This document shows positions 5,019-40,287 of a DNA stretch of 64,000 nt, piece after piece. The notes below the pieces were generated by a model, which was not told where the DNA came from, did not search any database, and saw only the letters and a program-made list of their open reading frames with translations. The stretch is from positions 992,001 to 1,056,000 of the forward strand of contig NZ_JAAAGB010000001.1 in assembly GCF_010586825.1 (NCBI RefSeq). Direction: 5' to 3'. Every line of letters begins with the position of its first letter. The first letter of the stretch is position 1. Source of the DNA: Draconibacterium mangrovi (GTDB taxonomy: Bacteria > Bacteroidota > Bacteroidia > Bacteroidales > Prolixibacteraceae). The translations under genes were made by a program, and so were the position numbers.

Positions 5019-6380
5019 ATGGCAAATCAAAAACTCGACTTCAGAGACTACCCCATAAACTGGAACGAGCGGGGAGGACGAAAATGGATATATGCCAAAA
5101 AGCCTTCGGGGAAATGGTTTACCCGCCGAACCATCGTTAGCTACTTTCTATTGTTGTTTTGGGTTGGTGTACCATTTATTCGGGTAAACGGCAATCCACT
5201 TATTCTGCTTGATATTGCCCACCGGAAATTTATCATTTTCGGAGCCATATTTTGGGCACAGGATACCTTTATCCTGGCACTTTTAATGCTCTCGTTTGTT
5301 CTTTTTGTGGTATTGTTTACGGTAACTTTTGGCCGGTTGTGGTGCGGCTGGACTTGTCCGCAAATCATATTTCTGGAAATGGTGTTTCGCAAAATTGAAT
5401 ACCTGATTGAAGGCGATTACCGCGAGCGCCATAAACTCGACAACAGTCCGTGGACCACAAAAAAAATCTTTAAGAAAACGCTGAAACACGGTATTTTCAT
5501 GCTTATCTCGGTTGCCATGACCAATGTTTTTCTAATGTGGTTTATTGGCAGCGACAGATGGATTAAAATGATACAGGAACCGATCAATCAAAACATTTCA
5601 GGCTTTTTGATAATGCTGCTTGTTTCGGCATTTTTCTATTGGGTGTATTCCTTTTTACGCGAACAAATTTGTATCATGCTTTGCCCATACGGACGTATGC
5701 AAGGTGTTCTACTCGATTCGAAGTCGATTGCCGTTACTTATGATTATGTGCGGGGCGAACCACGTGGCGGGCAGGGCGATGGCGATTGTACCGATTGCAA
5801 ACAGTGTATTTCGGTGTGCCCTACCGGAATCGATATTCGCAACGGTTCGCAACTTGAATGTATTAACTGCACCGCCTGTATCGACCAGTGTAACAAAATT
5901 ATGCATGTTACCGGCAAACCTCCGGGTTTAATTCGTTACGCCTCAGAAGCGCAAATAAAAGGTCAGCAAAATTCGATATGGAATGCGCGTAACCGGGCCT
6001 ATTCGGTTGTGCTACTACTTATTTTCTCGTTTTTTGTTTACACATTGTTTTCGAGACCGGTATTGGAAACGACTATTTTGCGCTCACCTGGGTTACTTTA
6101 CCAGGAGCAGGACAAAACTTTATCGAACGTTTACAACATTAAAATAGTAAATAAAACACACGACGAACTTCCGCTTGAATTGCGTGTTATTTCTCATGAT
6201 GGCAAAATTCAGATGGCCGGAAACACAATAATTTTGAAAGATCAGGATATGTATGAATCAACATTTATTCTTTTCTTGCCAAAAAGCGAAGTTACGAGTG
6301 ACAAAACCGAGGTTGAGTTTGGTGTTTTCAGCAATAATGAATTAATTGAAACCTATAAAGCCAGTTTTGTAGGGCCATAA
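5019..6380 (+). CDS. ccoG: cbb3 oxidase assembly ferredoxin-like protein CcoG
   Basis: A 453-residue membrane protein of the CcoG/RdxA/FixG family. I start it at the ATG at 5019, giving MANQKLDFRDYP; the frame is open to a TTG at 4974 but the extra 15 residues do not look like the family. Several membrane helices surround the WCGWTCPQ motif (about residue 109) and two [4Fe-4S] motifs of the CxxCxxCxxxCP type near 252-290. An immunoglobulin-like periplasmic domain forms the last 110 residues. In characterised systems CcoG reduces Cu(II) for delivery to the oxidase. It follows ccoP by 66 bases within the same run of genes. Confidence 0.95.
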   Translation: MANQKLDFRDYPINWNERGGRKWIYAKKPSGKWFTRRTIVSYFLLLFWVGVPFIRVNGNPLILLDIAHRKFIIFGAIFWAQDTFILALLMLSFVLFVVLFTVTFGRLWCGWTCPQIIFLEMVFRKIEYLIEGDYRERHKLDNSPWTTKKIFKKTLKHGIFMLISVAMTNVFLMWFIGSDRWIKMIQEPINQNISGFLIMLLVSAFFYWVYSFLREQICIMLCPYGRMQGVLLDSKSIAVTYDYVRGEPRGGQGDGDCTDCKQCISVCPTGIDIRNGSQLECINCTACIDQCNKIMHVTGKPPGLIRYASEAQIKGQQNSIWNARNRAYSVVLLLIFSFFVYTLFSRPVLETTILRSPGLLYQEQDKTLSNVYNIKIVNKTHDELPLELRVISHDGKIQMAGNTIILKDQDMYESTFILFLPKSEVTSDKTEVEFGVFSNNELIETYKASFVGP

Positions 6381-6384
6381 AAAA

Positions 6385-6413
6385 GCTGACAGTTGACAGT
6401 CGCAGTTTTTCAG
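6385..6413 (+). repeat. Short intergenic repeat, CAGT-rich family
   Basis: The gap between ccoG and ccoH holds GACAGTTGACAGTCGCAG and a further TTTTTCAGT. The same words recur at 22551-22580 and, on both strands, at 32230-32290, always between genes. It is probably one copy of a small dispersed repeat family. Confidence 0.6.
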
Positions 6414-6456
6414 TAAAAAATAAAGAAGGAAACAGGAATAATAAAAAAGGAAACAA

Positions 6457-6897
6457 ATGAAGTTTAATTGGGGAACAGGGATATTTCTTTTTCTGGCGTT
6501 GTTTTTAGCCGGATCGGCTGTTTTTATTGTATTTGCAGTGCGCCAGCCGGTAAACCTGGTGCATAAAAATTATTACGAAAAAGGTGTTGATCATACCGAA
6601 CAGATGAATGTAAATGCCCGCTCGAAACCGTTTGCACGATTGTTTGACGTGAACCTGAACAACGAAGCATTGGTTATTAACATTCAAAATGAACTGGCGA
6701 CAAAAATCGATTCCGGCAATATGCAATTGTATCGCCCGTCGGATTACACAAAAGACATCAGGCACGAAATTTTAGCGGGAAACAGTCTGATCCAGTTCCC
6801 AAAAACCGAGCTGATAACCGGCCGGTACATTCTAAAATTCACATGGTATACCAACGGTTTACGTTATGAAATCGACCGCCCGGTAAATATTCAGTAA
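6457..6897 (+). CDS. ccoH: FixH/CcoH family protein
   Basis: A 146-residue protein with one N-terminal membrane helix (about 6-30) followed by VHKNYYEKGVDH, a close match to the FixH signature in which a D/N-YYxKG segment follows the helix. The rest is a small periplasmic beta domain. CcoH helps assemble or stabilise the cbb3 oxidase. The order ccoG-ccoH is conserved in the family. The 76-base gap in front holds a dispersed repeat. Confidence 0.88.
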   Translation: MKFNWGTGIFLFLALFLAGSAVFIVFAVRQPVNLVHKNYYEKGVDHTEQMNVNARSKPFARLFDVNLNNEALVINIQNELATKIDSGNMQLYRPSDYTKDIRHEILAGNSLIQFPKTELITGRYILKFTWYTNGLRYEIDRPVNIQ

Positions 6898-6947
6898 ATT
6901 TACTACCTTTAAATCAATTACAACCTTTTGTTCAAATCAATAGCGCC

Positions 6948-7709
6948 ATGACCATTTTTATATCAGCACTTATTTTAGGATTGATGGGCAGTTTTCACTG
7001 TGCCGGAATGTGTGGACCAATTGCCATTGCTTTGCCACTACATGGCAACACTGTTCCGCAAAAAATATTCGGAGGAACCCTTTATAACCTGGGGCGCACC
7101 TTAACCTACGGAATGATGGGAGCAATTTTCGGGCTTCTCGGCCAGGGACTTCAACTCATCGGATTTCAGCAAAAAGTATCGGTGATTATGGGAGCCTTGA
7201 TGATCCTTTCGGTGCTGTTTCCCACATTGTTTAAAAACCAGTACAAGATGGATAAAAGCTGGTTTTCGGCAGTGGGTAAACTGAAAAAGAAAATCGGTGA
7301 AATGTTCTCGATCCGCTCCTTTCAAAGTCTGTTTTTTATTGGCATGCTTAATGGGTTACTTCCGTGTGGGTTAGTTTATATGGCCGTTGCCGGAGCCATT
7401 GGTACGGGCGGCGTTGCAGAAGGATCGCTGTATATGATCCTGTTTGGTTTGGGAACTATCCCCATGCTGCTGGCCATCTCGCTGGCAGGAAACGTATTGA
7501 GTTTAGCGGTACGAAAAAGAATCAACAAATTAATTCCGATACTGGTTGTTGTGGTTGGAATTCTGTTTGTATTGCGCGGATTAAGTTTGGGCATCCCCTA
7601 TTTAAGTCCGCCAAAACAAAAAATAGAGCAGAAATTTGAAAAAAGTCTGGAGAAAGAAAGTGCTGCAATGCATACTGAAACAAAAGGAGATTGTTGTAAA
7701 GTAGATTAG
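6948..7709 (+). CDS. SafE/UreH-like membrane protein of cbb3 locus
   Basis: A 253-residue protein with about six membrane helices. The first helix holds SFHCAGMCGPIAIALP and a related segment GLLPCGLVYMA appears near residue 139, the paired Cys/Pro motifs of the DsbD_2/UreH-like family, often annotated as sulfite exporter TauE/SafE. The C-terminal end has a Cys pair (GDCCKVD) that could bind metal. In many Bacteroidota this gene lies between ccoH and ccoI, which points to copper or thiol handling during oxidase maturation rather than sulfite export; that role is inferred. Confidence 0.8.
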   Translation: MTIFISALILGLMGSFHCAGMCGPIAIALPLHGNTVPQKIFGGTLYNLGRTLTYGMMGAIFGLLGQGLQLIGFQQKVSVIMGALMILSVLFPTLFKNQYKMDKSWFSAVGKLKKKIGEMFSIRSFQSLFFIGMLNGLLPCGLVYMAVAGAIGTGGVAEGSLYMILFGLGTIPMLLAISLAGNVLSLAVRKRINKLIPILVVVVGILFVLRGLSLGIPYLSPPKQKIEQKFEKSLEKESAAMHTETKGDCCKVD

Positions 7710-10241: not shown

Positions 10242-10988
10242 ATGATTAACAACAAAAAAGTGGTAGTGGTGCTTCCGGCTTACAATGCAGCCAAAACGCT
10301 TGAAATTACCTATAAGGAAATTGATTTCGACATTGTTGATGATGTAATTCTGGTAGATGACATGAGCAACGACGACACCGTTGAAGTTGGTAAAAAACTC
10401 GGTATTAAGCACATTGTAGTTCACGAGCAAAACAAAGGCTACGGCGGAAACCAAAAATCGTGCTACAACAAAGCACTGGAAATTGGAGCTGATATTGTAA
10501 TTATGCTTCACCCCGATTATCAGTACACCCCAAAGCTTATTCCGGCAATGGCCAATTTACTTGGAAACGAATTGTATCATGTGGTTTTGGGATCAAGGAT
10601 TTTGGGAACCGGAGCACTAAAAGGCGGCATGCCCCTAATCAAATACATTGCCAACCGCGGCCTTACTTTTATTGAGAATATTCTTCTTAATGCCAAACTT
10701 TCAGAATATCATACCGGGTACCGGGCCTTTTCGCGCGAAGTACTGGAAACAATAAACTACAATGCCAACTCTGATAATTTTGTTTTCGATAACCAAATGC
10801 TGGCTCAAACCTGGTATGCAGGTTATGAAATTGCCGAAATAACGTGCCCAACAAAATATTTTGATGATGCCTCATCAATCAGCATTAAAAACAGTACGAT
10901 TTATGCCATTGGTGTTTTAAGAACCGCCTGCCAATATCGTTTGCAGAAGTGGGGTTTGCTTAAGAACAAAATTTTTAATCATAAGTAG
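10242..10988 (+). CDS. Family 2 glycosyltransferase (DPM1-like)
   Basis: A 248-residue GT-A enzyme: VVVVLPAYNAAKTL at the nucleotide-binding start, VDDMSNDDT, then MLHPDYQY in place of the usual DxD, and HTGYRAFSRE in the acceptor region. It resembles dolichyl- or polyprenyl-phosphate mannosyl/glucosyltransferases without membrane domains. It probably loads a sugar onto a polyprenyl phosphate that the membrane enzymes encoded directly downstream then use. It opens a four-gene plus-strand set; the next start is 9 bases after its stop. Confidence 0.85.
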   Translation: MINNKKVVVVLPAYNAAKTLEITYKEIDFDIVDDVILVDDMSNDDTVEVGKKLGIKHIVVHEQNKGYGGNQKSCYNKALEIGADIVIMLHPDYQYTPKLIPAMANLLGNELYHVVLGSRILGTGALKGGMPLIKYIANRGLTFIENILLNAKLSEYHTGYRAFSREVLETINYNANSDNFVFDNQMLAQTWYAGYEIAEITCPTKYFDDASSISIKNSTIYAIGVLRTACQYRLQKWGLLKNKIFNHK

Positions 10989-10997
10989 CAAGTGAGA

Positions 10998-12554
10998 ATG
11001 AAAATCTTTGATCTTGGATTTCTTGATAGTCCGTCAGAAAGCAGATTTGTAGCAACTTTATACAAGATTTTGATTGTGGTTCTGTTTGCTTTTATCCTTC
11101 AGGCTGCATTTTTAAGGAATATGCAGAACTATACTGATCATGATGACAATCCTTATAATGCAGGAGCCAAGGTAACAGCTGAAGAAGGACTACTTCCCTA
11201 CAAAGATTACCGGTTAATACACATGCCTTACTATGTTTTTACATACGCCTTAATTCTTGAGTTTACACCATCGCTTACATTAAGTGCAAGAATTATTAGC
11301 CTGGCATCGTTTTTTACTATGCTTGTACTTATTTTTTATTCTATACAAAACTCACTATATCATAAAAACCAAATATTCAGATTTGTTATTGGAGCTTCTG
11401 CTCTATTGTTTATAATGTACAATCCTTTTGTGCAATATGCCTTTGCAAGATTTACCTACGACTTCCCATTATTGCTTTCAATGCTGTCATTTTTAGTGCT
11501 TTCGTCAACCGACAGAAGCAGACGGCTTCCGCTAAAAGCAGCAATTAGTGGATTGTTGTTGGGAGTTGCAGTTGGGTTCAGAATGCATTTCATTTTTTTC
11601 ATCATCCCGTTTGCACTGAGTATTTTATTGTTTCAAAAAGAGTCAACAACAGTTAAGTTTAAACAGTTCTTATACTTTTCGCTTGGTGTTTTTGCAGGAC
11701 TGATTCCTGTGTTCATTCTAATTTCGATTGCCCCCAAAGGCTTTCTTTTCGACATCTACCAGTTTCATTTTAAAATCGATATGAAGGCTCAACCCGGAGC
11801 AGCACTTTCCTTAGGTGAAAAATTAACGGAACTTTTCGATAAGGTGCTGGAAAAATGGCAATCATCAGTTCTACTGGCAGGTCTAATTTTGGCACTGATA
11901 CTCAAAGCTTTCAACCTTGTAAAAGACAACAGGTTAAATTTCAAGATAAATGTTCTGCTCATTACTTTACCATTTCTGGTATATCTCTCCGTTGGTAAAT
12001 TACTTATTATTCAATACGTATATCCGCTATCGGTTTTTCTGATTGTTGTGATCTTTTATACTATTGGCACGCAAAAAAATTACTTTAACTATGTAGCCAT
12101 CCTGTTTTTTGTGTTATCGATAATTCCGCCGTTAAAGGTGAATTATAAAAAAGCATATGACATGAAAACAACGGAATCATGGTATGCGCTTAGCCGACAC
12201 AGAATAAGCACTTTGGTTGATGAAGCAATAAATGGTGAAGCAAAAGTGTTGACGCTATCGCCTGCAGAGATTTTAGAAAGTGATTCCATTAAAATTTATA
12301 AAGAATTTGTAAGCAGCCCTTTTATTTGGCGTACCTCACATTCGATTTCTGATGATACGAGAAAAGAGTTTAATATTATCTCGAAAAAAGAGGTGGATAA
12401 TTTTATGCAAACCAATCAACCGGATGCCATTTTAACAGGCTATTACCTTGGAGATTTAGAGTTAAAATTTGTTGAGTTTGCACAAAAAAACGGGTATAAA
12501 AAAGTAGATCTGCCTACAGAGCGTGAACTAAAACTTTATATAAAAGAGAAGTAA
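10998..12554 (+). CDS. Polytopic membrane glycosyltransferase-like protein
   Basis: A membrane protein of about 518 residues. A GTG at 10992 is in frame two codons upstream; I prefer the ATG at 10998. It has roughly ten hydrophobic helices. An Asp-rich periplasmic loop after the first helix (YTDHDDNPYNAG) and the KDYRLIHMPYY segment recall the acidic first loop of GT39/GT83-type (ArnT/PMT-like) enzymes that take sugar from a polyprenyl phosphate donor. The last 130 residues form a soluble domain. No specific substrate can be read from the sequence. Confidence 0.65.
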   Translation: MKIFDLGFLDSPSESRFVATLYKILIVVLFAFILQAAFLRNMQNYTDHDDNPYNAGAKVTAEEGLLPYKDYRLIHMPYYVFTYALILEFTPSLTLSARIISLASFFTMLVLIFYSIQNSLYHKNQIFRFVIGASALLFIMYNPFVQYAFARFTYDFPLLLSMLSFLVLSSTDRSRRLPLKAAISGLLLGVAVGFRMHFIFFIIPFALSILLFQKESTTVKFKQFLYFSLGVFAGLIPVFILISIAPKGFLFDIYQFHFKIDMKAQPGAALSLGEKLTELFDKVLEKWQSSVLLAGLILALILKAFNLVKDNRLNFKINVLLITLPFLVYLSVGKLLIIQYVYPLSVFLIVVIFYTIGTQKNYFNYVAILFFVLSIIPPLKVNYKKAYDMKTTESWYALSRHRISTLVDEAINGEAKVLTLSPAEILESDSIKIYKEFVSSPFIWRTSHSISDDTRKEFNIISKKEVDNFMQTNQPDAILTGYYLGDLELKFVEFAQKNGYKKVDLPTERELKLYIKEK

Positions 12555-28858: not shown

Positions 28859-30022
28859 CTATTTTAAAGGAGCGGCGAATTTTAATACATCGGCTTCGGT
28901 AATTTCCTTATCGCACAAAATAATAAGCCTTTCAATTACATTCCGGAACTCGCGAATATTACCGGTCCAGTTAATTTTTTGCAACTCAGTTATACCCTTT
29001 TCGGTAATTGTTTTTTCCTGCATACCGTACTCGCCACAAATTTGTTTAATAAAATGATTGGCCAGTAAAGGAATATCATCAAGCCGCTCGTTAAGTGTTG
29101 GAACATGAATCAGAATCACACTTAAACGGTGATAAAGGTCTTCGCGGAATTTATTCTGATCAATCTCGTTGGCCAGGTTTTTATTGGTAGCAGCCACTAC
29201 GCGTACATCAACTTTTATGTGTTTATCGCCTCCTACACGGCTGATAATACTTTCCTGCAGCGCACGTAACACTTTGGCTTGTGCCGAAAGGCTCATATCG
29301 CCAATCTCATCAAGGAAAAGTGTTCCGCCATTGGCCTGCTCAAATTTTCCTTTGCGCTGTTTTACTGCCGAAGTAAAAGCTCCTTTTTCGTGACCAAACA
29401 ATTCACTTTCGATCAATTCAGAGGGAATAGCTGCACAATTCACTTCAACAAATGGCCCTGACGCGCGGTTGCTATGATCGTGAATCCGGCGGGCTACCAG
29501 CTCTTTCCCCGATCCGTTGGCACCGGTAATCAGCACCCGGGCATCGGTTGGAGCAACGCGGTCGGCCATTTCAATAATTTCGGTAATGGCTTTTGACTCG
29601 CCCACGATTTCAAATTTCTTATTAACCTTTTTCTTCAGAATTTTTGTTTCGGTAACCAGGGTTGATTTATCCATGGCATTGCGAATGGTGATCAACAAAC
29701 GGTTCAGATCAAGTGGCTTTTCAATATAATCGAAGGCTCCTTTTTTTATCGAATCAACAGCGGTATCAATATTTCCGTGTCCCGATATCATTACCACCGG
29801 AGTATCGGGAGCCAAAACCACCAAGCGTTCCAAGACTTCAATGCCATCCAGTCCCGGCATTTTTATATCACAAAGTACAATATCGTACTCGGCCGAACGA
29901 ATTTTCTCAATTCCTTTAGTTCCATCTTCTGCCAGATCTACTTCATATTTCTCGTATTCAAGAATATCTTTTAGCGTATTTCTGATGCTTCTCTCGTCGT
30001 CTATTACCAGGATCTTTGACAT
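28859..30022 (-). CDS. Sigma-54-type response regulator without DNA-binding domain
   Basis: A 387-residue protein. Residues 1-120 are a receiver domain with D52 as the likely phosphorylation site (LCDIKMPG). Residues 140-380 are an AAA+ sigma-54 interaction domain: Walker A GANGSGKE, Walker B TLFLDEIGD, arginine finger region FREDLYHRL. The sigma-54 contact loop reads GAFTSA instead of GAFTGA. The protein stops right after the AAA+ lid (KFAAPLK), so the usual Fis-type helix-turn-helix is absent. It may act without binding a specific enhancer. No histidine kinase is adjacent. Confidence 0.88.
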   Translation of the reverse strand: MSKILVIDDERSIRNTLKDILEYEKYEVDLAEDGTKGIEKIRSAEYDIVLCDIKMPGLDGIEVLERLVVLAPDTPVVMISGHGNIDTAVDSIKKGAFDYIEKPLDLNRLLITIRNAMDKSTLVTETKILKKKVNKKFEIVGESKAITEIIEMADRVAPTDARVLITGANGSGKELVARRIHDHSNRASGPFVEVNCAAIPSELIESELFGHEKGAFTSAVKQRKGKFEQANGGTLFLDEIGDMSLSAQAKVLRALQESIISRVGGDKHIKVDVRVVAATNKNLANEIDQNKFREDLYHRLSVILIHVPTLNERLDDIPLLANHFIKQICGEYGMQEKTITEKGITELQKINWTGNIREFRNVIERLIILCDKEITEADVLKFAAPLK

Positions 30023-30271: not shown

Positions 30272-30910
30272 TTAACACCCGCCAGCAGCAACACTGGATT
30301 TTTCGCGGCGACGCACCTGCACAGGTTTGTTATCCTGATCAGCATTTAGTTCAGAACCGTCTTTTGGAGCGGCCATTTCAGCATAGTTATACCGCGGAAA
30401 TCCGCTAAAATATGCATCGTCGTCAATAGTACTGTACAAATCATCTTCATTGGCTTTGTAATACTCATAACCACCCAGTAACAGTTTGATGTTGTTAAAT
30501 CCAACCTGGCGAAAAAACATCCACGGACCATTTGCCTGTAGCTCGTTTTCGCCATACAAAACAATGGTTACACCCATATCGCGAAGTGCTTCCAAACGTT
30601 CTAAGTTATCAGGGTCGGTCAAGGTATTTGCCGACAAATTCTCGGCTCCGGGAATATGTCCCTGCCCAAAAACAAAGTTATCGCGAATATCAAACAAAAC
30701 GATACTATCGGGTTTATTGGCGATCACATCTACAAGCTCCCAGGGGTAGAAATAATCCTCACCATCAAGTAAAGCTTCGATACTTTCGTCCATGCTTTTT
30801 TCGTATTTAAACAAAGGATTTGGCATGGTTAAAAAGCCAATTGCAAGAATAACCACAAATACTGACACTGCGATTAATGTTCTCCACGGATTTAGTTCAT
30901 GTATATGCAT
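30272..30910 (-). CDS. Membrane-anchored rhodanese-fold protein with C-terminal GGC tail
   Basis: A 212-residue protein with one N-terminal hydrophobic helix (about 11-29), placing the rest outside the inner membrane. Residues 55-155 keep the rhodanese fold (VLFDIRDNFVFGQGHIPGAE), but the active-site loop reads VLYGENELQANG, with glycine where the catalytic cysteine belongs. The only cysteine in the whole protein is the last residue, in the tail VQVRRREKSSVAAGGC. The neighbouring upstream gene ends in almost the same tail. I infer a sulfur carrier or docking protein that uses the terminal thiol. It is the last gene of the operon. Confidence 0.8.
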   Translation of the reverse strand: MHIHELNPWRTLIAVSVFVVILAIGFLTMPNPLFKYEKSMDESIEALLDGEDYFYPWELVDVIANKPDSIVLFDIRDNFVFGQGHIPGAENLSANTLTDPDNLERLEALRDMGVTIVLYGENELQANGPWMFFRQVGFNNIKLLLGGYEYYKANEDDLYSTIDDDAYFSGFPRYNYAEMAAPKDGSELNADQDNKPVQVRRREKSSVAAGGC

Positions 30911-30937
30911 GTTTTTAATTTTTTCAATAGTTAGAAA

Positions 30938-31552
30938 TTAGCAACCACCAGCTGCAACGTTTGATTTTTCTCTTCGGCGTACCTGCACTTCAACATTGTC
31001 GCCTTCAGGAGTTGCTGCTTCAGCTCCTGTAAAATAAATTTGTGCTCCTTTGCGAAATGCATAAAGTTTGTGATCAACAGAAGGCGCATCGGCATCAGGT
31101 TGCGAAGGTTCAATTATGGTTTGCATCCAGCAGTTTAAGCCACCTTTCATTACGTATGTGCCATCAACACCCAAACGTTTGGTTAACACCCATGTTTGAT
31201 CGGCGCGGATATCGTCGTTGGAAATAAATACTACTTTAACTCCCGGTACTCCGAAGTATCCCATATTGCCTTCGTTTAAAAGTTCCTCAAGCGGAATATT
31301 TACCGAGCCCGGCAATGCATATTCGGCATACTCATCTGCCGGACGCACATCAATCATTAACAACGATGGATCGCCCTGGATGATCATCTTAGCCACCTGG
31401 TCGGTCGTTACATATCGTGTAGGCTGAATTATTTCCTGCAGCAGTTCCTCAGGATCAATTTGTTTTGGCTCATCATCGCTTGTTAAAAACAATGTTCCTA
31501 CCGCCAACACAAGCATTAATATGGTTAGTAAAATATAATTTCGATTCATCAC
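30938..31552 (-). CDS. Membrane-anchored rhodanese-fold protein with C-terminal GGC tail
   Basis: A 204-residue protein with an N-terminal anchor helix (about 5-24). Residues 45-145 form the rhodanese fold (LLMIDVRPADEYAEYALPGSVNIP ends its first half in two short segments; KGGLNCW closes it). The active-site loop VVFISNDDIRADQ has serine or isoleucine instead of cysteine. Its two cysteines are C141 in the GGLNCW motif and the terminal C204 of VQVRRREKSNVAAGGC. The tail matches the downstream gene at 14 of 16 positions although codons differ widely. Role inferred as periplasmic sulfur transfer next to the YeeE channel. Confidence 0.8.
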   Translation of the reverse strand: MMNRNYILLTILMLVLAVGTLFLTSDDEPKQIDPEELLQEIIQPTRYVTTDQVAKMIIQGDPSLLMIDVRPADEYAEYALPGSVNIPLEELLNEGNMGYFGVPGVKVVFISNDDIRADQTWVLTKRLGVDGTYVMKGGLNCWMQTIIEPSQPDADAPSVDHKLYAFRKGAQIYFTGAEAATPEGDNVEVQVRRREKSNVAAGGC

Positions 31553-31563
31553 ATTTCAGTCGT

Positions 31564-32166
31564 TTAGAATTTATATTGCTTCATGTTTTTACGCACGCGT
31601 TTCTCGATAAACATTGTTCCCCAGAAAGCTGCAAGTGCCACTACTGTAAATACTACAGCGAACACGGGTGCCGGAATACCTGTCAGATCGGTAAGCGTAA
31701 CGTTTCCGAGGTTTCCACTCGTAAAGAAGTTTTCGAACAATGGAAATGCCAGCGAAAAACCGAAGATTCCCACGTAAAGTCCTATTGCAAAAAATACAGC
31801 ATCGAGTTTACCAATGGCAATTCCGGTAAAACTGGTTCCCGGGCAAAAACCGCCCAGCACAAATCCAACTCCCATTATTACGCCACCAACAATCATTGGT
31901 CCTAAAAATGTTGGAAGAATAAATATTTGCGAGAGACTGATCCAGCCCACATAATCGAAATATAACAGGCCAACCATTGCTACGATTAACGCAGTAAAAA
32001 ATACGCGAAGCACAACAAAGTTATAGCCGTAAAATACACCGGCCAGGTTTCGTGAAGAAGAAAAACCCGATGCTTCGAGAATAAATCCAAATGCGACTCC
32101 GAGCAAAATTGCGATAACAAAATCCCATCCGCCGCCAATTACACCATTAGGAATTAAAGGTCCCAT
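31564..32166 (-). CDS. YeeE/YedE sulfur transporter, second half
   Basis: A 200-residue protein with five or so membrane helices of the YeeE/YedE (PF04143) family, which import thiosulfate or other sulfane sulfur through cysteine relays. GGFCPGTS (C108) matches the conserved cysteine motif of the C-terminal half of full-length YeeE. C108 is its only cysteine. The other half is encoded just upstream in transcription order (32299-32835). It ends 12 bases before a rhodanese gene, which fits a channel supplied by a persulfide carrier (inferred). Confidence 0.88.
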   Translation of the reverse strand: MGPLIPNGVIGGGWDFVIAILLGVAFGFILEASGFSSSRNLAGVFYGYNFVVLRVFFTALIVAMVGLLYFDYVGWISLSQIFILPTFLGPMIVGGVIMGVGFVLGGFCPGTSFTGIAIGKLDAVFFAIGLYVGIFGFSLAFPLFENFFTSGNLGNVTLTDLTGIPAPVFAVVFTVVALAAFWGTMFIEKRVRKNMKQYKF

Positions 32167-32298: not shown

Positions 32299-32835
32299 CT
32301 ATATCCAAAATTTTCTAAAAAAGTAAGCCACCAGGTACCCGGTACCAAAAATGGAAAACATTACAATTACTCCACCTAAGGCAAAAGTAGCGGTACCACT
32401 TAATGCGGCTCCACTGGTACATCCACGGCCAAACTGACTTCCCAATCCAAAAAGAGCTCCACCAATTAAGGCTAAAATGAGTCGTTTTTTATTGGAAATC
32501 TGTGGTCCTTTGTCAATTCTGAATTTCTTCATTCTTCCGAAAACAATACCGGAAAGAATTCCACCCAGTAAAAGCCCCAGCGATTCGAACACCAACCAGG
32601 TATTCATTGGCGAATGACCGTCGCTAAGAAACTGGCACATATATGCGTTAGCTTCAGTAGCTTTTGGAGCAATTGTATTTGATGTTGTTACAACTGCACT
32701 TTTAACCGCTCCGCTGGCACCCAGCCCGCGGCCCGTAATAAATACGGTTGCAAGAACCAGTAATCCGAGTAGTACACCGCCCAAATAAGGGTTGATGTAT
32801 TTCGGCTCTTGTATATTTGTTTGTTCTGAACTCAT
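32299..32835 (-). CDS. YeeE/YedE sulfur transporter, first half
   Basis: A 178-residue protein with four membrane helices of the YeeE/YedE family. GRGCTSGAALSG (C139) is the conserved cysteine motif of the N-terminal half of YeeE; a further cysteine, C67, sits in an extracytoplasmic-looking loop (AYMCQF). With C108 of the partner gene the pair has three cysteines, the number known to be functional in characterised YeeE. It starts 17 bases after the NrfD gene stop in the same operon. Confidence 0.88.
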   Translation of the reverse strand: MSSEQTNIQEPKYINPYLGGVLLGLLVLATVFITGRGLGASGAVKSAVVTTSNTIAPKATEANAYMCQFLSDGHSPMNTWLVFESLGLLLGGILSGIVFGRMKKFRIDKGPQISNKKRLILALIGGALFGLGSQFGRGCTSGAALSGTATFALGGVIVMFSIFGTGYLVAYFFRKFWI

Positions 32836-32852
32836 ATTATTATAGTTTATTT

Positions 32853-33794
32853 TTAGTAGAGATAACGTGTAATTTGTCCGGCTTCAACCATAATGAAACG
32901 GAACATAAATCCACCAAATAAGATCATTACCGGAGGCAACCATTTTGGTACGTGCATTCCCCAAATTTCGAGTGTCTCGAACAATGCAGGAAAGATTAAA
33001 CCGATGGCCACAACAAATACCCAGAAACTTACAGTAAATTCTCCGCCCAGGAATAAGTTGGCAGCTTCGATTGCTGTTTCCGAACCGGCCAAAAATCCCA
33101 TAAAAAGGTGAACGATCAGAAAGATTTCGATGAAAATAAAAACAAGGTCGATCCTGCTTAATATTTTCCGTTCGTTGGCATCTTTACTCATCCAGATAAT
33201 GGTAGCTAGCCCGGTTGAAAATCCGGAAACAAGGAACAGTGGTCCGAGGATGGATGTATTCCACAACGGACGCGCATTAAATGCTGAAAGTAATATTCCG
33301 GTATAAACACCCAGAATAATTGCATAGATCATCATAATCCACGCCAGACTAACTCTGTGTTTTATAACAAAGGCTTCAAACTTCTCCAGAAAATCAAATT
33401 TCCAGTTCCAGCCCGGTATCAGTTCTTTCATGTAACTGGCCACCCAAATAAACGATATTGGAGTAATGATCATCAATGTCCAGGCTCCCCAACCCATCGG
33501 CGATTCCAATCGGATGGTGGTGTACAATTGCCAAAAGAAAAGTTTGTGTTTTAAATCAAGAAACAGCGCAAACAAGCCCAATATCAGTGCAATTGGAGCA
33601 ATAATTGGCGCAATTTTTACTGTTGTTTTCATTTCTTTCTCTTTCCCCCTGACAACAAAATATCCGGCAAAAAACAATATGCCTGCGGCCAAACCACCTA
33701 AAAACAAATAGAGTGGAATTTGCCAGTGCCATATATTAAGGTATGGATCGATGTTCGGAATATTTCGTCCGCTTACAAATAATTCTTCTTTCAT
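32853..33794 (-). CDS. NrfD/PsrC-type membrane anchor of molybdoenzyme
   Basis: A 313-residue protein with about eight membrane helices, the size of PsrC. The early segment NIWHWQIPLYLFLGGLAAG is a recognisable PsrC/NrfD signature. It carries no heme and should exchange electrons between menaquinone and the Fe-S subunit encoded immediately upstream. The gene order A-B-C is the normal order for polysulfide/thiosulfate reductases. Confidence 0.92.
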   Translation of the reverse strand: MKEELFVSGRNIPNIDPYLNIWHWQIPLYLFLGGLAAGILFFAGYFVVRGKEKEMKTTVKIAPIIAPIALILGLFALFLDLKHKLFFWQLYTTIRLESPMGWGAWTLMIITPISFIWVASYMKELIPGWNWKFDFLEKFEAFVIKHRVSLAWIMMIYAIILGVYTGILLSAFNARPLWNTSILGPLFLVSGFSTGLATIIWMSKDANERKILSRIDLVFIFIEIFLIVHLFMGFLAGSETAIEAANLFLGGEFTVSFWVFVVAIGLIFPALFETLEIWGMHVPKWLPPVMILFGGFMFRFIMVEAGQITRYLY

Positions 33795-33813: not shown

Positions 33814-34347
33814 TTAGGTAAGAAAATACAATTGTGGTTTTGTTCCGGCTTCAGGGGCCAGTACTTTCCATGAACGGTCTTTGATAGCCAGCGAAACATC
33901 GCTGTTCGGATCGTCCAAATCGCCAAAATGCAAACACTTGGTAGGACACACATCAACACAAGCCGTTTTTTGTCCTTTCTGAACGCGGTGCAAACAGAAG
34001 GTACATTTATCAACATAACCATCGGGATGCGAGTAACGTGCATCGTATGGGCACGACTGAATACATGCGCCACAACCAATACATTTATGATGAGTTACAG
34101 TTACAATTCCACCTTCTTCAATATGACTTGCCCCGGTTGGACAACACCGCACACACGGTGAATTATCGCAGTGATTACAACGCTCCGAACGAAATTCAAG
34201 ACTCAAACTTGGGTAAGTTCCGTCAACGCGTTCAACAATCCAGTCGCGACAGTATCCATGCGGTACATTATTTTCTGTTTGACAGGCCACTACACAGTCG
34301 CCACACCCAACACATTTTTTTGTGTCGATCGCCATTGCATATCTCAT
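33814..34347 (-). CDS. Four-cluster [4Fe-4S] electron transfer subunit (PsrB-like)
   Basis: A 177-residue ferredoxin-like protein with four cysteine groups: CVGCGDCVVAC, CNHCDNSPCVRCCP, CIGCGACIQSCP and CTFC with the later CVDVCP, enough for four [4Fe-4S] clusters. This is the DmsB/PsrB/PhsB type that wires the molybdenum subunit to the membrane anchor. Its ATG overlaps the stop of the catalytic subunit gene by four bases (ATGA), so the two are translationally coupled. Confidence 0.94.
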   Translation of the reverse strand: MRYAMAIDTKKCVGCGDCVVACQTENNVPHGYCRDWIVERVDGTYPSLSLEFRSERCNHCDNSPCVRCCPTGASHIEEGGIVTVTHHKCIGCGACIQSCPYDARYSHPDGYVDKCTFCLHRVQKGQKTACVDVCPTKCLHFGDLDDPNSDVSLAIKDRSWKVLAPEAGTKPQLYFLT

Positions 34348-36599
34348 GCTTTAACCTCCTTTTCTTCCAGTGCAGGATCTTCTGTTAAAAATGTTATAAA
34401 GTTTCCTCTCATTCCGGTACCACCCATAATCGGATCAACGGCAACATTTGTTATCATTTCGGTATCGGCGGCTCCTTTTCCAAAAGCCCTTGAGAGTTTT
34501 TTGTTTTTATGACCAAATCCGTGAACCATATACACCGAGTCCCAGCGAATTCGTTCAGTTATCCGCACCTTAATTGGAAATGATGTGATGGCATCGTCCT
34601 GGTTTTTCAACCATACTTCCTGTCCGTTTTTCAGTCCCCACAAGTCGGCAACTTTTGGATTTACCCAAACGCTGTTCTCACTCATCAGGTCTGATAAATT
34701 CGGGTTGTTTGACGTACGGCTGAAAGTGTGCATTGGCGCACGACCGTAAATCAAACGATAGAAATTCTGTGGTGGTTCAGGATGTTTCGTATAGTTTGGA
34801 ATCGGATCAAAACCGTGGTCGGCAAAATCAACTGAATACAGTTCAATTTTTCCGGTTGTGGTATTGAAATTATAATCTTCGCCATCACCCATATAAAGCG
34901 GGCCGGTTTTTCTCGGGTATTTTTTAACACCAATTTTCTTCATTTCTTCCAATGAAGTACCCAGCTGTTTTAACTGCCAGTCGATTACTTCTGAATAATC
35001 ATCGTAGTTAAAGTAATCGTGTAAACCTAAACGTTCGCCAATTTGTTTGGCAATCCACCAACCTGGTTTCGAATCGTATTTTGGTTCGATAGCCGGCATA
35101 CGCAATGCAATATTTGGCTCGCGGTTAGCTGCAGAACGAATTACATCGTAACGCTCGAGATAAGTTGCTTCCGGAAAAACCACATCGGCATAACCGGTAA
35201 TATCCATCGGCATGGTATCCATTACTGCAATAAACTCAACCGAATCAGCAGCTTCTTTAAATAACGGTTTATCCGGCATCGACAGTGGTAGGTTTGTGCC
35301 GGCCACCAACCATGCTTTTAGCTGGTGTTTATAATTGTATCTTGGAATAGATGCTTTTAAGGCCTCAGTAGTAATCCCCATTGTTGCCAGTGGGTACCTG
35401 TCTTCATTCCAGTCTTTCCATGTCCATTTTGGCTCAGGGAAATGTGGGTGCGGATAAGCAGGAACAGAAACGCCCTCAGGGAAATATAATCCTCCGCGTT
35501 TTCCCCAGGAACCCAACAAGGCAGTAAGAATTGCCATGGCACGTCCGCGTTGTGTATCGTCGCCGTACCAAACCACGTGGCGTCCCGGGTGAATAATTAC
35601 CGCAGGAGCTGCATCGGCCATCGCGCGTGCAGTTCTTCTGATTTCTTCCGGCTCGATGGTAGTGATACCATAAGCCCACTCCGGAGTCATATTTTTCACA
35701 TGATCTTTTAAATAATCAAGACCAAATGTATATTGCTCAACGTAATCTTTATCGTATAAACCTTCGTAAATCAGCACATGGATCCATGCCATTAACAAAG
35801 CGATATCGGTTGACGGTTTAATGGGCAACCAGTGATTTGAATGCGCTGCTGCCGTTGAAAAACGCGGATCAACCGTAATAATAGTTGCGCCGTTATCAAT
35901 GGCGTCCGACATTTCCTGCACCTGCGAATTGTGCATGTTCTCGCCCAGGTGCGAACCAATTAACACCAAACATTTGGTATCTCTGATATCGGTACATTCG
36001 GGCGAGCCAACATAGGCTCCAAATGTTGAAAAATAAGCCGACGAACGTGGACCACGACAATTGGCAAACGCAGGCTCGGCATTACTTTCCGAACCATAAG
36101 CACGTAGCAAATGGTGAAAATGACCTCCGGGAGTTCCGTGATTGAACAAACCAAAAGCTTCAGGACCGTACTTTTCTTTTACTTCCTTCATCTTATCGGC
36201 AACTTTGTTCAGCGCCTCATCCCATGTTGCTTCTCTGAAATATTGAGTACCATCCTTGCGAGTATCTCTTATCAGCGGTGTTTTTAAACGATCTTCGTCG
36301 TAAACCATACCAACGCCGCCTGTTCCTCGCGGACACAAACGACCGTTACAATGCGGGTCGTTCTTATTACCAACAACTTTTCGTATAGTTCCGTTTTTAT
36401 CGACATAAGCCCACGCAGCACATTTCCAAAAGCATACTTCGCAATAAGTTGGATACGGAGTAAGATCCTCATCACTTACCGGACCTTCGGTCTTCGATTC
36501 GAAGAGCCCGAAACCTTTTGATCCCAAAGCCTTAAAACTTATGGCAGCAGCTCCGGCACCGGCAGTTGAAATTTTGATAAAATCCCGTCTTGTCTTCAT
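34344..36599 (-). CDS. Molybdopterin oxidoreductase, Psr/Phs-like catalytic subunit
   Basis: A 751-residue member of the DMSO reductase family with a twin-arginine signal (TRRDFIK then a hydrophobic stretch), so it is exported folded. One [4Fe-4S] site is formed by CEVCFWKC and the later NGRLCPRG. A cysteine in FANCRGPRSS is at the position of the molybdenum ligand, as in polysulfide and thiosulfate reductases. Length matches PhsA/PsrA (about 750-770) and is shorter than sulfite dehydrogenase SoeA or tetrathionate reductase. Neighbours (rhodaneses, YeeE) favour a sulfur substrate, in either direction. Substrate is not proven by sequence. A mobA gene for its cofactor lies in the island. Confidence 0.88.
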   Translation of the reverse strand: MKTRRDFIKISTAGAGAAAISFKALGSKGFGLFESKTEGPVSDEDLTPYPTYCEVCFWKCAAWAYVDKNGTIRKVVGNKNDPHCNGRLCPRGTGGVGMVYDEDRLKTPLIRDTRKDGTQYFREATWDEALNKVADKMKEVKEKYGPEAFGLFNHGTPGGHFHHLLRAYGSESNAEPAFANCRGPRSSAYFSTFGAYVGSPECTDIRDTKCLVLIGSHLGENMHNSQVQEMSDAIDNGATIITVDPRFSTAAAHSNHWLPIKPSTDIALLMAWIHVLIYEGLYDKDYVEQYTFGLDYLKDHVKNMTPEWAYGITTIEPEEIRRTARAMADAAPAVIIHPGRHVVWYGDDTQRGRAMAILTALLGSWGKRGGLYFPEGVSVPAYPHPHFPEPKWTWKDWNEDRYPLATMGITTEALKASIPRYNYKHQLKAWLVAGTNLPLSMPDKPLFKEAADSVEFIAVMDTMPMDITGYADVVFPEATYLERYDVIRSAANREPNIALRMPAIEPKYDSKPGWWIAKQIGERLGLHDYFNYDDYSEVIDWQLKQLGTSLEEMKKIGVKKYPRKTGPLYMGDGEDYNFNTTTGKIELYSVDFADHGFDPIPNYTKHPEPPQNFYRLIYGRAPMHTFSRTSNNPNLSDLMSENSVWVNPKVADLWGLKNGQEVWLKNQDDAITSFPIKVRITERIRWDSVYMVHGFGHKNKKLSRAFGKGAADTEMITNVAVDPIMGGTGMRGNFITFLTEDPALEEKEVKA

Positions 36600-37181: not shown

Positions 37182-37580
37182 ATGGGAATGAAAACCAAAA
37201 ACCGAAGAGTTTTTTTGAAAATAGTGGCGGTAGGATTTGTTTCGTTTTTTGCATTCATCTGGAATAAATTAACGCTCCAACATATTGCAACTTCCGGTGC
37301 AGAAGAAGTGTCGGTTCCGCTGAACATGAACAAGGAAGTGCAGTTTTTCGACAAATACATTATTGTAAATTCAGATCATCAAACAAAGGTTTTTTCATCG
37401 CATTGCAGCCACCTGGGATGTAAAATTGATAAAATGGAAAGCGGCAAACTGGTTTGTCCTTGTCATGGTTCGGAATACGATCTGCAAGGACAGGTTATAA
37501 AAGGACCGGCATACAAAAATCTTACGATACTCGACTCGACGGTTTCCGACGACGGAAAATCAATAACAATTAAAGGATAA
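37182..37580 (+). CDS. Rieske [2Fe-2S] protein
   Basis: A 132-residue protein. The N-terminus has a twin-arginine motif (NRRVFLK) and one hydrophobic helix, as for Rieske proteins of bc complexes. The cluster ligands are in CSHLGC and CPCHGSEYD. It is shorter than most bc1 Rieske proteins but has the complete cluster-binding fold. The next gene, a cytochrome b fusion, starts one base after the stop, so both form one complex that oxidises quinol. ATG 37188 is an alternative start, two codons later. Confidence 0.92.
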   Translation: MGMKTKNRRVFLKIVAVGFVSFFAFIWNKLTLQHIATSGAEEVSVPLNMNKEVQFFDKYIIVNSDHQTKVFSSHCSHLGCKIDKMESGKLVCPCHGSEYDLQGQVIKGPAYKNLTILDSTVSDDGKSITIKG

Positions 37581-37581
37581 A

Positions 37582-40287
37582 ATGGCAAAGAAGAATGATA
37601 AAACAACGTTTGGAACAATAGCAGTGGCTATGTTCTGGCTAGTTATTTTATCCGGCATTTTGCTTGCCGTTCCTTTTAATGTTGAATCGCCTTACCTGAG
37701 TGTAAGCACAATGATCGTAGCCAATCCGTGGGCTGCGCTTATCCGTAACTACCATTACTGGAGCTCGCAGTTCTTCCTTGTTTTCAGCCTTATTCATCTT
37801 TACGATCATTTTCATTACAAAGAAAAAATCGGCCTAAAAAAAGGAATGGCATTCCGGCTGAGCATTGGTGTTTTAATCATATTCCTGGCCATGATCACCG
37901 GCTTTTTGCTGAAAGGGGATTCCGACAGCGAGCAGGCCCGGCAAATATTACAAACACTTGCCGAGCGCGTTCCGTTAATTGGCCAGTCGCTGGCATTTTC
38001 ATTGCTGGGGCACCCGGAAAGCTACCAGCTAATTTATGTGCACCACATAGCCACATTTACCGTTTTTATTGCGGTAATAATGATTGAGCACAGCCGCAGA
38101 AAATACTGGCCCCCGGTGCTTGATTTTGTTATTTCGGCAATTGGCGTTTTGGCATTCAGCTACCTTTTCAGTGCACCCTTGCACGACAATCTGAATCCGG
38201 CAGTAAAAGGCCCGTGGTACTTTGTCGGTTTCCAGGAAATATTGCACTGGCTGAGCCACCCGGCCTGGTCGTTGTTACTTTTTTTGGTGTTGCTTGTTTT
38301 GCTTTACCTGGTTAATTCAGCCAAAGGTAAAACGATGTTTCTCAGCAAACGAAGTCTGCTTGTTTTCACCGGCTTCTACCTGGTCTTAACTATTATTGGT
38401 TTATTTTTCCGTGGAGAGCGCTGGCAATGGAAAAATCCGTGGCAGGAAAACTACCGCTACGAAGTACTGAATAATTTTAAATCGCCGAGAGTACAACTTA
38501 CTCCCGAATTTGAACTGGGTACGGCAATCGCCTCCCCGGTTATCCAGGGACGAAAAGAAAGCTGCCTGGCCTGCCACTCGGAAACGCATGGCCTTACCGA
38601 TTCGCATTCGCCTGAGGCCATTGGTTGTGTTTCCTGTCATGGCGGCAATCCGTTTGCAACCGGTAAAAATCAGTCGCATAATAATATGATCCTTATTCCG
38701 GGAAATCTGGCTACCGCGCCACAATCGTGCGGAACAACGCAGTGTCATCCGGAAATTGTTGAGCGCGTACCCACCGGTTTAATGGCTACATTAAGCGGAA
38801 TGATCAGTGTTGATCGTTTTGTATTCAACGAACAGGATAATCCCGATGAACTGGCCAATGTACATCATCTCGGGAATTCGGCTGCCGACGAGCATCTGCG
38901 TAATTTATGCGTCCGCTGCCACCTTGGAAATCCAAAAACAGAATATGGCCCGGTTAACGAAAGCAGCCGTGGAGGAGGCTGCCTGGCCTGCCACCTGAAT
39001 TACAGCCCCGAGGCAGAAATTGCACTTGCCAAGGTTAAAGACACCATTATTAATGCGCACCCGTCGATTAGTTTGGCCACTAGCAACAACCACTGTTTTG
39101 GATGCCACAGCCGCTCGGGCAGGATTTCAACCAATTACGAAGGTTGGCACGAAACAACACTTGAAGTCAAACAAATGCCTACTAACGACAATAACTATCG
39201 CCTGATCGAAGGAGAACGTGTATTTGTAAAAAAACAGCAAGACGTTCACCACGAGCTGGGAATGGAATGTATCGATTGTCATCATTCGTATGAAGTAATG
39301 GGCGACGGAACACTTTATGCCCACCAGGAAGATCAGGCGGATGTGCAATGTATTGATTGCCATTTTGACGGCGATGCAAGAACGATAAAAGCCGAAAATC
39401 TTGACAATGAATCGGCAATTATCGCGGCTTTACGACTTGGCAATATTTCAGGGAAAGAATTTTTGGTAACCGGCAAACGCAAGCACGCGCTGGTAAATAC
39501 TTTTGTTGAAAACGACACGGCGTTTCTGCAAACCAAAAACAGCAAGATTAAAATGGCTTTAACCCGTCCGGCAGAAGTTTGTACAAGAAGCAATGCCCAC
39601 TCTGACCTGGCCTGTTCAAGTTGTCACTCGTCGTGGGTGCCAACTTGTATTGGCTGCCACAACGAATACGATCCGAATGAGCCATCGTACAATATGGTAG
39701 CTAATAAAGAGCAAACCGGCGGCTGGGTTGAATTTTTTGGCGAGTATGAAGCGAAACTTCCGTCGTTGGGCATGCGAACTGAAGGCGAAAAATCAGAAGT
39801 TATACCTGTTGCTCCGGGAATGATTCTTACCATCGACAAAAGCGCTTACACCGACGACGCAGATAATTTGACTATTTTTCATCGTTTGTATGCGCCGGTT
39901 GCACCGCACACCACCACCAAAGAAGGACGGGATTGCAAAAGCTGCCACAACAGTTCGCTTGCCTTAGGTTATGGGGAAGGAAAACTGGAATACGAAATGG
40001 CAGACGGAAAGGGAAAATGGACATTTGCTCCGCTTTACCAGCGCGATGTTAACGACGGTTTGCCCGCCGATGCCTGGATCGATTTTCTGCAAACACGAAC
40101 CGGCAAAGTAGCCACACGTTCGAATGTTTCTCCGCTAAGTGTTGAACAACAACAGGCCATATTAACAGTTGGCGCCTGCCTTACCTGCCATGATGATGAC
40201 TCGAGAATAATGAAAGCTACGCTTAACGATTTTGAAGAGCAGCTACAAAAGCGAAGTTCTGCCTGTATTCTTCCCGAATGGAAATAA
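37582..40287 (+). CDS. Cytochrome b fused to a twelve-motif multiheme cytochrome c
   Basis: A 901-residue fusion. Residues 1-280 are a cytochrome b of bc/b6f type: heme ligands H58/H72 (13 between) and H155/H170 (14 between, the b6 spacing), and a quinol-site region KGPWYFVGFQEILHW in place of PEWY. After the last helix (about 257-277) comes a large extracytoplasmic domain with eleven CxxCH motifs (first cysteines near 328, 349, 443, 467, 505, 563, 590, 678, 689, 785 and 866) and one CX4CH at 383-389. It replaces the cytochrome c1 of classical complexes and may pass electrons to distant or extracellular acceptors, or to a sulfur/nitrogen enzyme (inferred). It ends convergent to the DsrE gene. 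Confidence 0.9.
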   Translation: MAKKNDKTTFGTIAVAMFWLVILSGILLAVPFNVESPYLSVSTMIVANPWAALIRNYHYWSSQFFLVFSLIHLYDHFHYKEKIGLKKGMAFRLSIGVLIIFLAMITGFLLKGDSDSEQARQILQTLAERVPLIGQSLAFSLLGHPESYQLIYVHHIATFTVFIAVIMIEHSRRKYWPPVLDFVISAIGVLAFSYLFSAPLHDNLNPAVKGPWYFVGFQEILHWLSHPAWSLLLFLVLLVLLYLVNSAKGKTMFLSKRSLLVFTGFYLVLTIIGLFFRGERWQWKNPWQENYRYEVLNNFKSPRVQLTPEFELGTAIASPVIQGRKESCLACHSETHGLTDSHSPEAIGCVSCHGGNPFATGKNQSHNNMILIPGNLATAPQSCGTTQCHPEIVERVPTGLMATLSGMISVDRFVFNEQDNPDELANVHHLGNSAADEHLRNLCVRCHLGNPKTEYGPVNESSRGGGCLACHLNYSPEAEIALAKVKDTIINAHPSISLATSNNHCFGCHSRSGRISTNYEGWHETTLEVKQMPTNDNNYRLIEGERVFVKKQQDVHHELGMECIDCHHSYEVMGDGTLYAHQEDQADVQCIDCHFDGDARTIKAENLDNESAIIAALRLGNISGKEFLVTGKRKHALVNTFVENDTAFLQTKNSKIKMALTRPAEVCTRSNAHSDLACSSCHSSWVPTCIGCHNEYDPNEPSYNMVANKEQTGGWVEFFGEYEAKLPSLGMRTEGEKSEVIPVAPGMILTIDKSAYTDDADNLTIFHRLYAPVAPHTTTKEGRDCKSCHNSSLALGYGEGKLEYEMADGKGKWTFAPLYQRDVNDGLPADAWIDFLQTRTGKVATRSNVSPLSVEQQQAILTVGACLTCHDDDSRIMKATLNDFEEQLQKRSSACILPEWK

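Follow-up and report, generated by a model that had tools for sequence, protein, structure and literature searches.

Two adjacent genes of Draconibacterium mangrovi, referred to as R1 and R2, encode rhodanese-fold proteins that lack the cysteine of the catalytic loop and end in a Gly-Gly-Cys (GGC) tail. With moderate confidence we interpret them as periplasmic swinging-arm sulfur carriers, which are built on a disabled rhodanese scaffold and serve a split YeeE channel. The analysed window comprises 64,000 nucleotides (positions 992,001 to 1,056,000 of the forward strand of contig NZ_JAAAGB010000001.1, assembly GCF_010586825.1) of the 5.9 Mb genome, and coordinates refer to this window unless another locus is named.

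Two rhodanese-fold proteins and their operon

R1 (30272..30910, minus strand) and R2 (30938..31552, minus strand) encode proteins of 212 and 204 amino acids, each with an N-terminal hydrophobic helix, a rhodanese-fold domain and the GGC tail. For R2, an ATG at position 31549 is a possible start instead of the GTG at 31552 and would give 203 amino acids. Both proteins matched the Pfam rhodanese family PF00581 (R1 53.9 bits, R2 48.3 bits; cut-off 22.2), and the 50 Foldseek matches listed for R2 in the PDB were mostly rhodanese-like domains (among them BH2092, RDL2, YgaP and MOCS3), which confirmed the fold named in a preliminary description of this DNA. The position of the catalytic cysteine was assigned from sequence alignments together with the secondary structure of the AlphaFold2 model of R2, in which a strand (residues 105–109) is followed by a loop and a helix (residues 114–125). 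It is occupied by Gly120 in R1 (codon 30551..30553, minus strand) and by Ser111 in R2 (codon 31220..31222, minus strand), so the catalytic loop cysteine is absent from both proteins, as described earlier. The only cysteine of R1 is its last residue; R2 contains a second one in the motif KGGLNCW.

The tails VQVRRREKSSVAAGGC of R1 (codons 30275..30322, minus strand) and VQVRRREKSNVAAGGC of R2 (codons 30941..30988, minus strand) are identical in 15 of 16 residues, one more than the 14 counted in the preliminary description. Nine of these 15 residues are encoded by different synonymous codons, in line with the earlier 'at least nine', and six by the same codon. The overall identity of the two proteins is just 25%. 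AlphaFold2 models, calculated from window and named-locus sequences only, had a mean pLDDT of 85 for each protein. In R2, an N-terminal helix precedes a rhodanese core mostly above 90, while residues 178–203 were mostly below 50 (178–189 and 196–203); the R1 tail scored about 50. According to these models the C-terminal tail is probably a flexible arm.

Upstream of R2 on the same strand lie two half-length YeeE (Sulf_transp) genes. YA (31564..32166, minus strand) covers positions 4–159 of the Pfam family and YB (32299..32835, minus strand) positions 175–309. Both halves exceeded the PF04143 cut-off, and each contains one motif cysteine in the window sequences (GGFCPGT in YA, GRGCTSG in YB). 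They are preceded by genes for a PsrC/NrfD-type membrane subunit (32853..33794), a PsrB-type iron-sulfur subunit (33814..34347) and a PsrA/PhsA-type molybdoenzyme of 751 amino acids (34344..36599), all on the minus strand. The solved chain closest to PsrA was 2vpw_A (E 3e-185), named thiosulfate reductase in that entry, and PsrA scored below the NCBIfam PhsA equivalog cut-off. The label PsrABC stands here for molybdoenzyme, iron-sulfur and NrfD subunits in this order and embraces Phs, Psr and their relatives.

The closest named locus belongs to an uncultured Draconibacterium (R2 91% identical), followed by Maribellus species. Among 80 named loci, which were selected by likeness to R2, the order PsrA-PsrB-PsrC-YB-YA-R2-R1 was complete in 62, and 18 were shorter yet collinear; all 18 run into a contig boundary at their start or finish. 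L114 also showed no R1 after its R2. Six Psr operons (L304, L306, L310, L319, L327 and L328) encode a tandem rhodanese as a third protein with the same or a similar tail.

Two further gene groups flank the operon. Divergently from PsrA, positions 37182–40287 of the plus strand encode a Rieske protein followed by a 901-amino-acid ORF that combines cytochrome b with multiheme cytochrome c domains; this pair may be an electron partner. Directly after R1 and in the same direction, a sigma-54 response regulator of 387 amino acids is encoded (28859–30022, minus strand). In L147, the octaheme operon is likewise followed by a 387-amino-acid protein of this domain composition (10786–11949).

Conservation of the tail and operon types

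Searches with R2 gave matches in 36 of 37 genomes of the genus (E 0.001, own genome included), some of which were other rhodaneses, and in 151 of 393 genomes of the order (1e-6). At class level, 5 of 295 genomes matched (1e-6, own genome included); the weak matches L034 and L035 were short rhodaneses without a tail. An R2 profile matched 56 of 296 genomes of the phylum (1e-10), and each of the best 29 phylum loci besides our own encodes a protein ending in GGC or EGC/DGC. A plasmid search with R2 gave two weak matches.

For a quantitative comparison, 109 distinct Bacteroidota pairs were collected in which both genes are complete and the R2 ends differ from pair to pair. All 109 R2 proteins end in GC or GC plus one residue (GGC 104, GGCx 3, xGC 2), as do 107 of 109 R1 proteins (GGC 105, GGCx 1, xGC 1). 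The two other R1 genes are L041, where a tail was not found in any frame, and L063, which ends in EECPDLN. In the R1 and R2 alignments the terminal cysteine was invariant. The catalytic column, on the other hand, held a cysteine in 5 of 218 proteins (R2 of L093, L100 and L108; R1 of L062 and L063), and R1 of L042 has one a column earlier. The preliminary description had named homologues without the tail or its cysteine, or a usual catalytic cysteine elsewhere in the loop, as evidence against its proposal. Losses of the tail were seen in L041, L063 and a few others; 216 of the 218 paired proteins kept the ending, and the checks turned out mostly to favour the proposal. A tail arisen by chance is ruled out by this conservation of the terminal cysteine across pairs.

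At the DNA level, the [A/G]GGC-stop pattern GSNGGNGGNTGYTRR occurred 5 times in the own genome and its reversed control 10 times; a count without surplus was not taken as evidence. None of the three other places of the pattern (L029–L031) lies at the end of an ORF of at least 60 amino acids ending in GGC. Selenocysteine at the tail was also considered and rejected, as the ORFs end in Cys and stop under the standard code.

Single operons display unusual arms. In L299 (2906–5597) and in L327, three adjacent rhodaneses all have poly-glycine tails (GGGGGGC), a striking matched change. R2 of L308 (G668, C31) carries the acidic arm EEEEEEEEGC, and the other Psr operon of G668 encodes KRKKKEVEGGC.

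Armed rhodaneses, i.e. those with such a tail, were found in further operon types. Type II operons consist of an octaheme cytochrome, a cytochrome b561, usually a tandem rhodanese, then YB and a YA-rhodanese fusion, often with a single rhodanese in addition. The octaheme cytochrome belongs to the tetrathionate reductase family TIGR04315 (3 of 3 tested above cut-off), and b561 was assigned in 3 of 3. GGC-type tails were present in 20 of 22 YA-rhodanese fusions (exceptions L161 and L164), in 16 of 17 complete tandem rhodaneses (exception L164) and in 20 of 20 single rhodaneses, a set that includes the L147 Psr pair and, with L150 and L169, a genome represented by two contigs that share their tails. 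Some lineages thus make arm and channel as a single polypeptide. The loop residue of the 22 fused rhodaneses is Ser in 18, Gly in 2, Ala and Thr in 1 each and never Cys. The tandem rhodanese retains a loop-cysteine motif in its second domain in at least 13 of 18 loci.

Type III loci (L007, L170–L177 and L185) combine YeeE halves with a rhodanese ending in LDGGC or LDGGCE, and Psr genes were not found in them. Five of the ten encode an extra short tailless rhodanese, four of these without cysteine and one (L172) with a single cysteine. The divergent tandem rhodanese of this type has no tail in L007, nor in 8 of 8 others. L007 itself (5405–7618; C11:1195404–1197617 of the own genome) is the genome's second YeeE pair, with an armed rhodanese ending in DGGCE and beside it a degenerate rhodanese without any cysteine or tail. 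In a Psr variant where R2 alone was found (L178–L184), this protein ends in QGGC or VGGC in 7 of 7 cases.

In the fourth type, YeeE is about 407 amino acids long with its halves in swapped order, and the rhodaneses end in GGCGG or SGCGG. Its first rhodanese has a loop cysteine; the second has Cys in L294 and L295 and Ser in L292, L293 and L297. L292 (7280–12193) additionally encodes DsrE-like, FlpD and FAD/FeS proteins. Rhodaneses of this kind near a swapped YeeE were seen in L292, L293, L294, L295, L297 and L298, and they join a SoxY-like end to another fold.

The first proposal, a thiol relocated from the rhodanese loop to the arm, is too simple. Related tandem rhodaneses and GGCGG rhodaneses next to YeeE can carry both cysteines together, so the arm is what stays constant, and it is the loop cysteine that can be dispensed with.

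The probable partner of the arms

The search for rhodaneses ending in GGC beside YeeE genes that had been suggested earlier found them across many Bacteroidota genomes. Controls were performed from both sides. The own genome encodes 10 rhodanese proteins, and the three among them that end in GGC all adjoin YeeE halves; conversely, the four YeeE halves form two pairs, both next to an armed rhodanese. Starting from YeeE, 149 genomes of the order were searched with PF04143, of which 69 matched, and the best-scoring 30 loci (one per genome, not a random sample) were inspected. Among 17 split pairs, 14 had GGC on a neighbour or fusion and one had GGLCG (L219); one was cut (L221), and the remaining pair, L217, had no armed tail even within 15 kb. 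All five swapped YeeE genes were accompanied by a GGCGG or SGCGG rhodanese. Eight of the 30 loci contained a full-length YeeE and no ORF with a GC tail within the locus of 3–4 kb. Second YeeE loci in genomes with an armed operon (L309, L311, L318) had no GC-tailed ORF within 7–9 kb. As the eight full-length YeeE genes, L217, L309, L311 and L318 are armless, YeeE as such can do without an arm, and these loci slightly lowered our confidence in the reading of R1 and R2 as armed carriers. Starting from rhodaneses, 9 of the 29 best-scoring loci (again not random) were armed, and each of the 9 belongs to a YeeE or octaheme cluster; the other 20 had no armed tail, and one of these, L283, also adjoins YeeE.

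Either YeeE or the Psr-like enzyme had been proposed as the recipient of the sulfur. Arms occur without Psr and fused to a YeeE half, which favours YeeE and makes Psr the less favoured client. The split YeeE, not the redox enzyme, is the steadier companion of the arms. A Sud-like function, in which the arms would keep polysulfide and pass it to the active site of PsrA alone while YeeE is a separate importer, is unlikely on these grounds. Sud of Wolinella succinogenes is a periplasmic protein serving PsrABC and has a rhodanese fold with its sulfur-binding cysteine in the rhodanese loop. The R2 profile matched 1qxn, a sulfide dehydrogenase that we take to be Sud, with an E value of 1.5e-4, and 12 other rhodaneses scored better. 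An excerpt of PMC2628731 describes that Sud presents polysulfide to Psr. In addition, at least one Psr subunit was present in 72 of the 80 named loci, chosen by R2 likeness as they were, and the other 8 start at a contig end. R1 and R2 differ from Sud in the missing loop cysteine, the N-terminal helix and the GGC arm. Moreover, their relatives remain with YeeE where Psr is missing: the arms persist where an octaheme cytochrome and a cytochrome b replace Psr as well as in type III, and the fusions seen among the loci examined joined the arm to YeeE, none to Psr.

The invariant terminal cysteine and the likeness of partner tails within an operon would also fit a structural or redox tether, in which terminal cysteines link R1, R2, the tandem rhodanese or YeeE by disulfides and no sulfur is carried. 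We consider this improbable as well. Like-charged basic tails would be poor mutual partners, a rhodanese fused to YeeE has no need of a tether, and the R2-only Psr operons nevertheless keep GGC. It is very unlikely that the tail is a signal for targeting, processing, lipidation or metal binding rather than a carrier arm. Such a signal could explain why several proteins that otherwise differ share a short conserved motif at the C-terminus, but a hydrophobic segment near the tail is absent, the residues after the cysteine vary (E, S, A, G or GG), the motif resembles the SoxY substrate motif, and the armed proteins adjoin YeeE or octaheme genes in the samples examined.

The likeness of tails within an operon was analysed in 107 of the 109 pairs, after two pairs without normal tails had been dropped. 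Over the 12 residues before GGC, identity of R1 to R2 was 0.69 within a genome and 0.36 between genomes. For 72 non-redundant pairs the values were 0.63 and 0.34, and shuffled pairings of this set gave a mean of 0.34 (sd 0.014, maximum 0.40). The match fades upstream: in the 72 pairs, the next 12 residues showed 22% versus 13% identity, and there was no difference at positions −45 to −28. The R1 tail was closest to its own R2 in 44 of 72 cases and to the R2 of the nearest relative in 18, with 10 ties.

Genomes with two armed operons displayed a tail identity of 0.67 within operons (6 genomes) and 0.17 between operons (12 genomes), the latter comparison also mixing different paralogue types. 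Within-operon identity exceeded between-operon identity in 5 of the 6 genomes that allowed both measurements; the exception was G687. This test used 10 of 17 fetched genomes, to which G000 and G034 were added. It leaves out G372, G397 and G359, whose second YeeE locus lacks an armed protein, and G392, G456 and G549 with a single locus per genome in the data. G572 was also left out since its two contigs with the same tails are a probable duplicate; as two operons they would count against operon-specificity. In type II operons (n 14–15), tails matched between tandem and single rhodanese (p 0.0003) and between tandem rhodanese and fusion (p 0.014), and the match of YeeE fusion and single rhodanese was not significant (p 0.14).

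Codon identity at identical tail residues was 0.47 compared with an expected 0.44 (last 15 residues, 72 pairs), and 0.48 compared with 0.46 without GGC; in the core it was 0.41 compared with 0.42. As the tail values lie near the codon-usage expectation with a slight excess, recent gene conversion is not the rule and was rejected as a general cause, although it is likely in L064 (14 of 15 tail codons shared) and possible in L144 (10 of 12). Even though an old event with saturated codons would leave such values, it is extremely unlikely that the tail likeness is a functionally meaningless product of conversion between adjacent paralogues, given the small codon excess, the cysteine kept in all operon types and the like tails on the much longer tandem protein. 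In the simplest reading of these sequences, the matched tails would reflect selection on a common partner or task.

Known sulfur carriers and the proposed mechanism

DsrC and ThiS/MoaD are flexible C-terminal sulfur carriers and had been put forward as parallels for the tail. The DsrC domain has two arm cysteines and ThiS/MoaD use a Gly-Gly carboxylate. Unlike DsrC, R1 and R2 have PF00581 only and one tail cysteine; unlike ThiS/MoaD, they have another fold and, in 216 of 218 cases, Cys as the last or next-to-last residue. Judged from the sequences, SoxY appears to be the better parallel. According to an excerpt of PMC6067878, the cysteine in the C-terminal GGCGG of SoxY binds the sulfur substrate. 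The glycine-flanked C-terminal cysteine is common to both, and some YeeE-linked rhodaneses end exactly in GGCGG. The likeness concerns the end: R1 and R2 differ from SoxY in the rhodanese fold, the N-terminal helix, a chain that mostly stops at the cysteine and the Psr or octaheme partners. A SoxY domain was absent from the Pfam matches of R1, R2, one fusion and one GGCGG protein, which consisted of PF00581 alone or, in the fusion, PF00581 with Sulf_transp.

On the channel side, YB and YA resemble PmpA/PmpB, the split YeeE halves discussed by Li et al. 2024 (PMC11582611), being two half-length Sulf_transp proteins with one pore-motif cysteine each. The same text mentions that sox systems can include the YeeE-family protein SoxT, calls sulfur transfer from SoxY into SoxT conceivable, describes the import of sulfur as poorly understood and puts forward proteins of the DsbA or SoxS type as its presenters. 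Excerpts of two other papers propose that conserved cysteines of YeeE relay thiosulfate to YeeD, which acts on the side of the cytoplasm (PMC11073785), and that Desulfurivibrio YeeE/YedE accepts sulfur from periplasmic polysulfide or sulfurtransferases (PMC12142623). In contrast to YeeD of the YeeE/TsuA-YeeD/TsuB system, which the former excerpt places on the cytoplasmic side, the armed rhodaneses would be periplasmic according to their predicted topology. A further difference from YeeE/TsuA, PmpA/PmpB and SoxT is that the armed rhodanese can be fused to the N-terminal half of YeeE.

Taken as swinging-arm carriers for YeeE, R1 and R2 would each be anchored in the inner membrane by the N-terminal helix. 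The rhodanese domain without its reactive cysteine might dock on or beside the split channel and hold a flexible arm of about 25 residues, rich in Arg and Lys in this organism and tipped with Gly-Gly-Cys. In the window operon, the sulfane sulfur on the arm thiol would stem from reactions of polysulfide or thiosulfate at the Psr-type enzyme; in the sister operons, the octaheme cytochrome or a loop cysteine in the tandem rhodanese could be the place of loading. The loaded arm would then enter the YeeE pore with its one conserved-type cysteine per half, and the sulfur would pass to the cytoplasm. We infer the periplasmic side, the persulfide on the cysteine, the docking at the pore, the direction of import and the substrate. 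The chances are roughly even that the arm, the channel half and a quinol-linked reductase of sulfur compounds work as a single relay that carries periplasmic sulfane sulfur to the cytoplasm, and that the arms represent a large carrier class convergent with SoxY.

TusA is a usual cytoplasmic acceptor. In the own genome it occurs solely inside an 832-amino-acid ORF about 97 kb before the window, which also contains rhodanese domains; the genome's single TusA match lies at C11:894462–895043 (L155, L188). This TusA-rhodanese protein is a possible cytoplasmic acceptor.

Among the matches listed from the open PMC literature and the portions of text they provide, no description of GGC-tailed rhodaneses, of a YeeE-rhodanese fusion or of a PsrABC-YB-YA-R2-R1 operon was found. 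The components and the swinging-arm principle are known; the combination, the rhodanese scaffold and the fusion to YeeE appear to be new. With a candidate presenter fused to a channel half, periplasmic sulfur presentation to YeeE becomes testable with few constructs. The findings further suggest that the loss of the catalytic cysteine need not imply a loss of sulfur chemistry, and that many Bacteroidota have a family of carriers concealed behind the name rhodanese.
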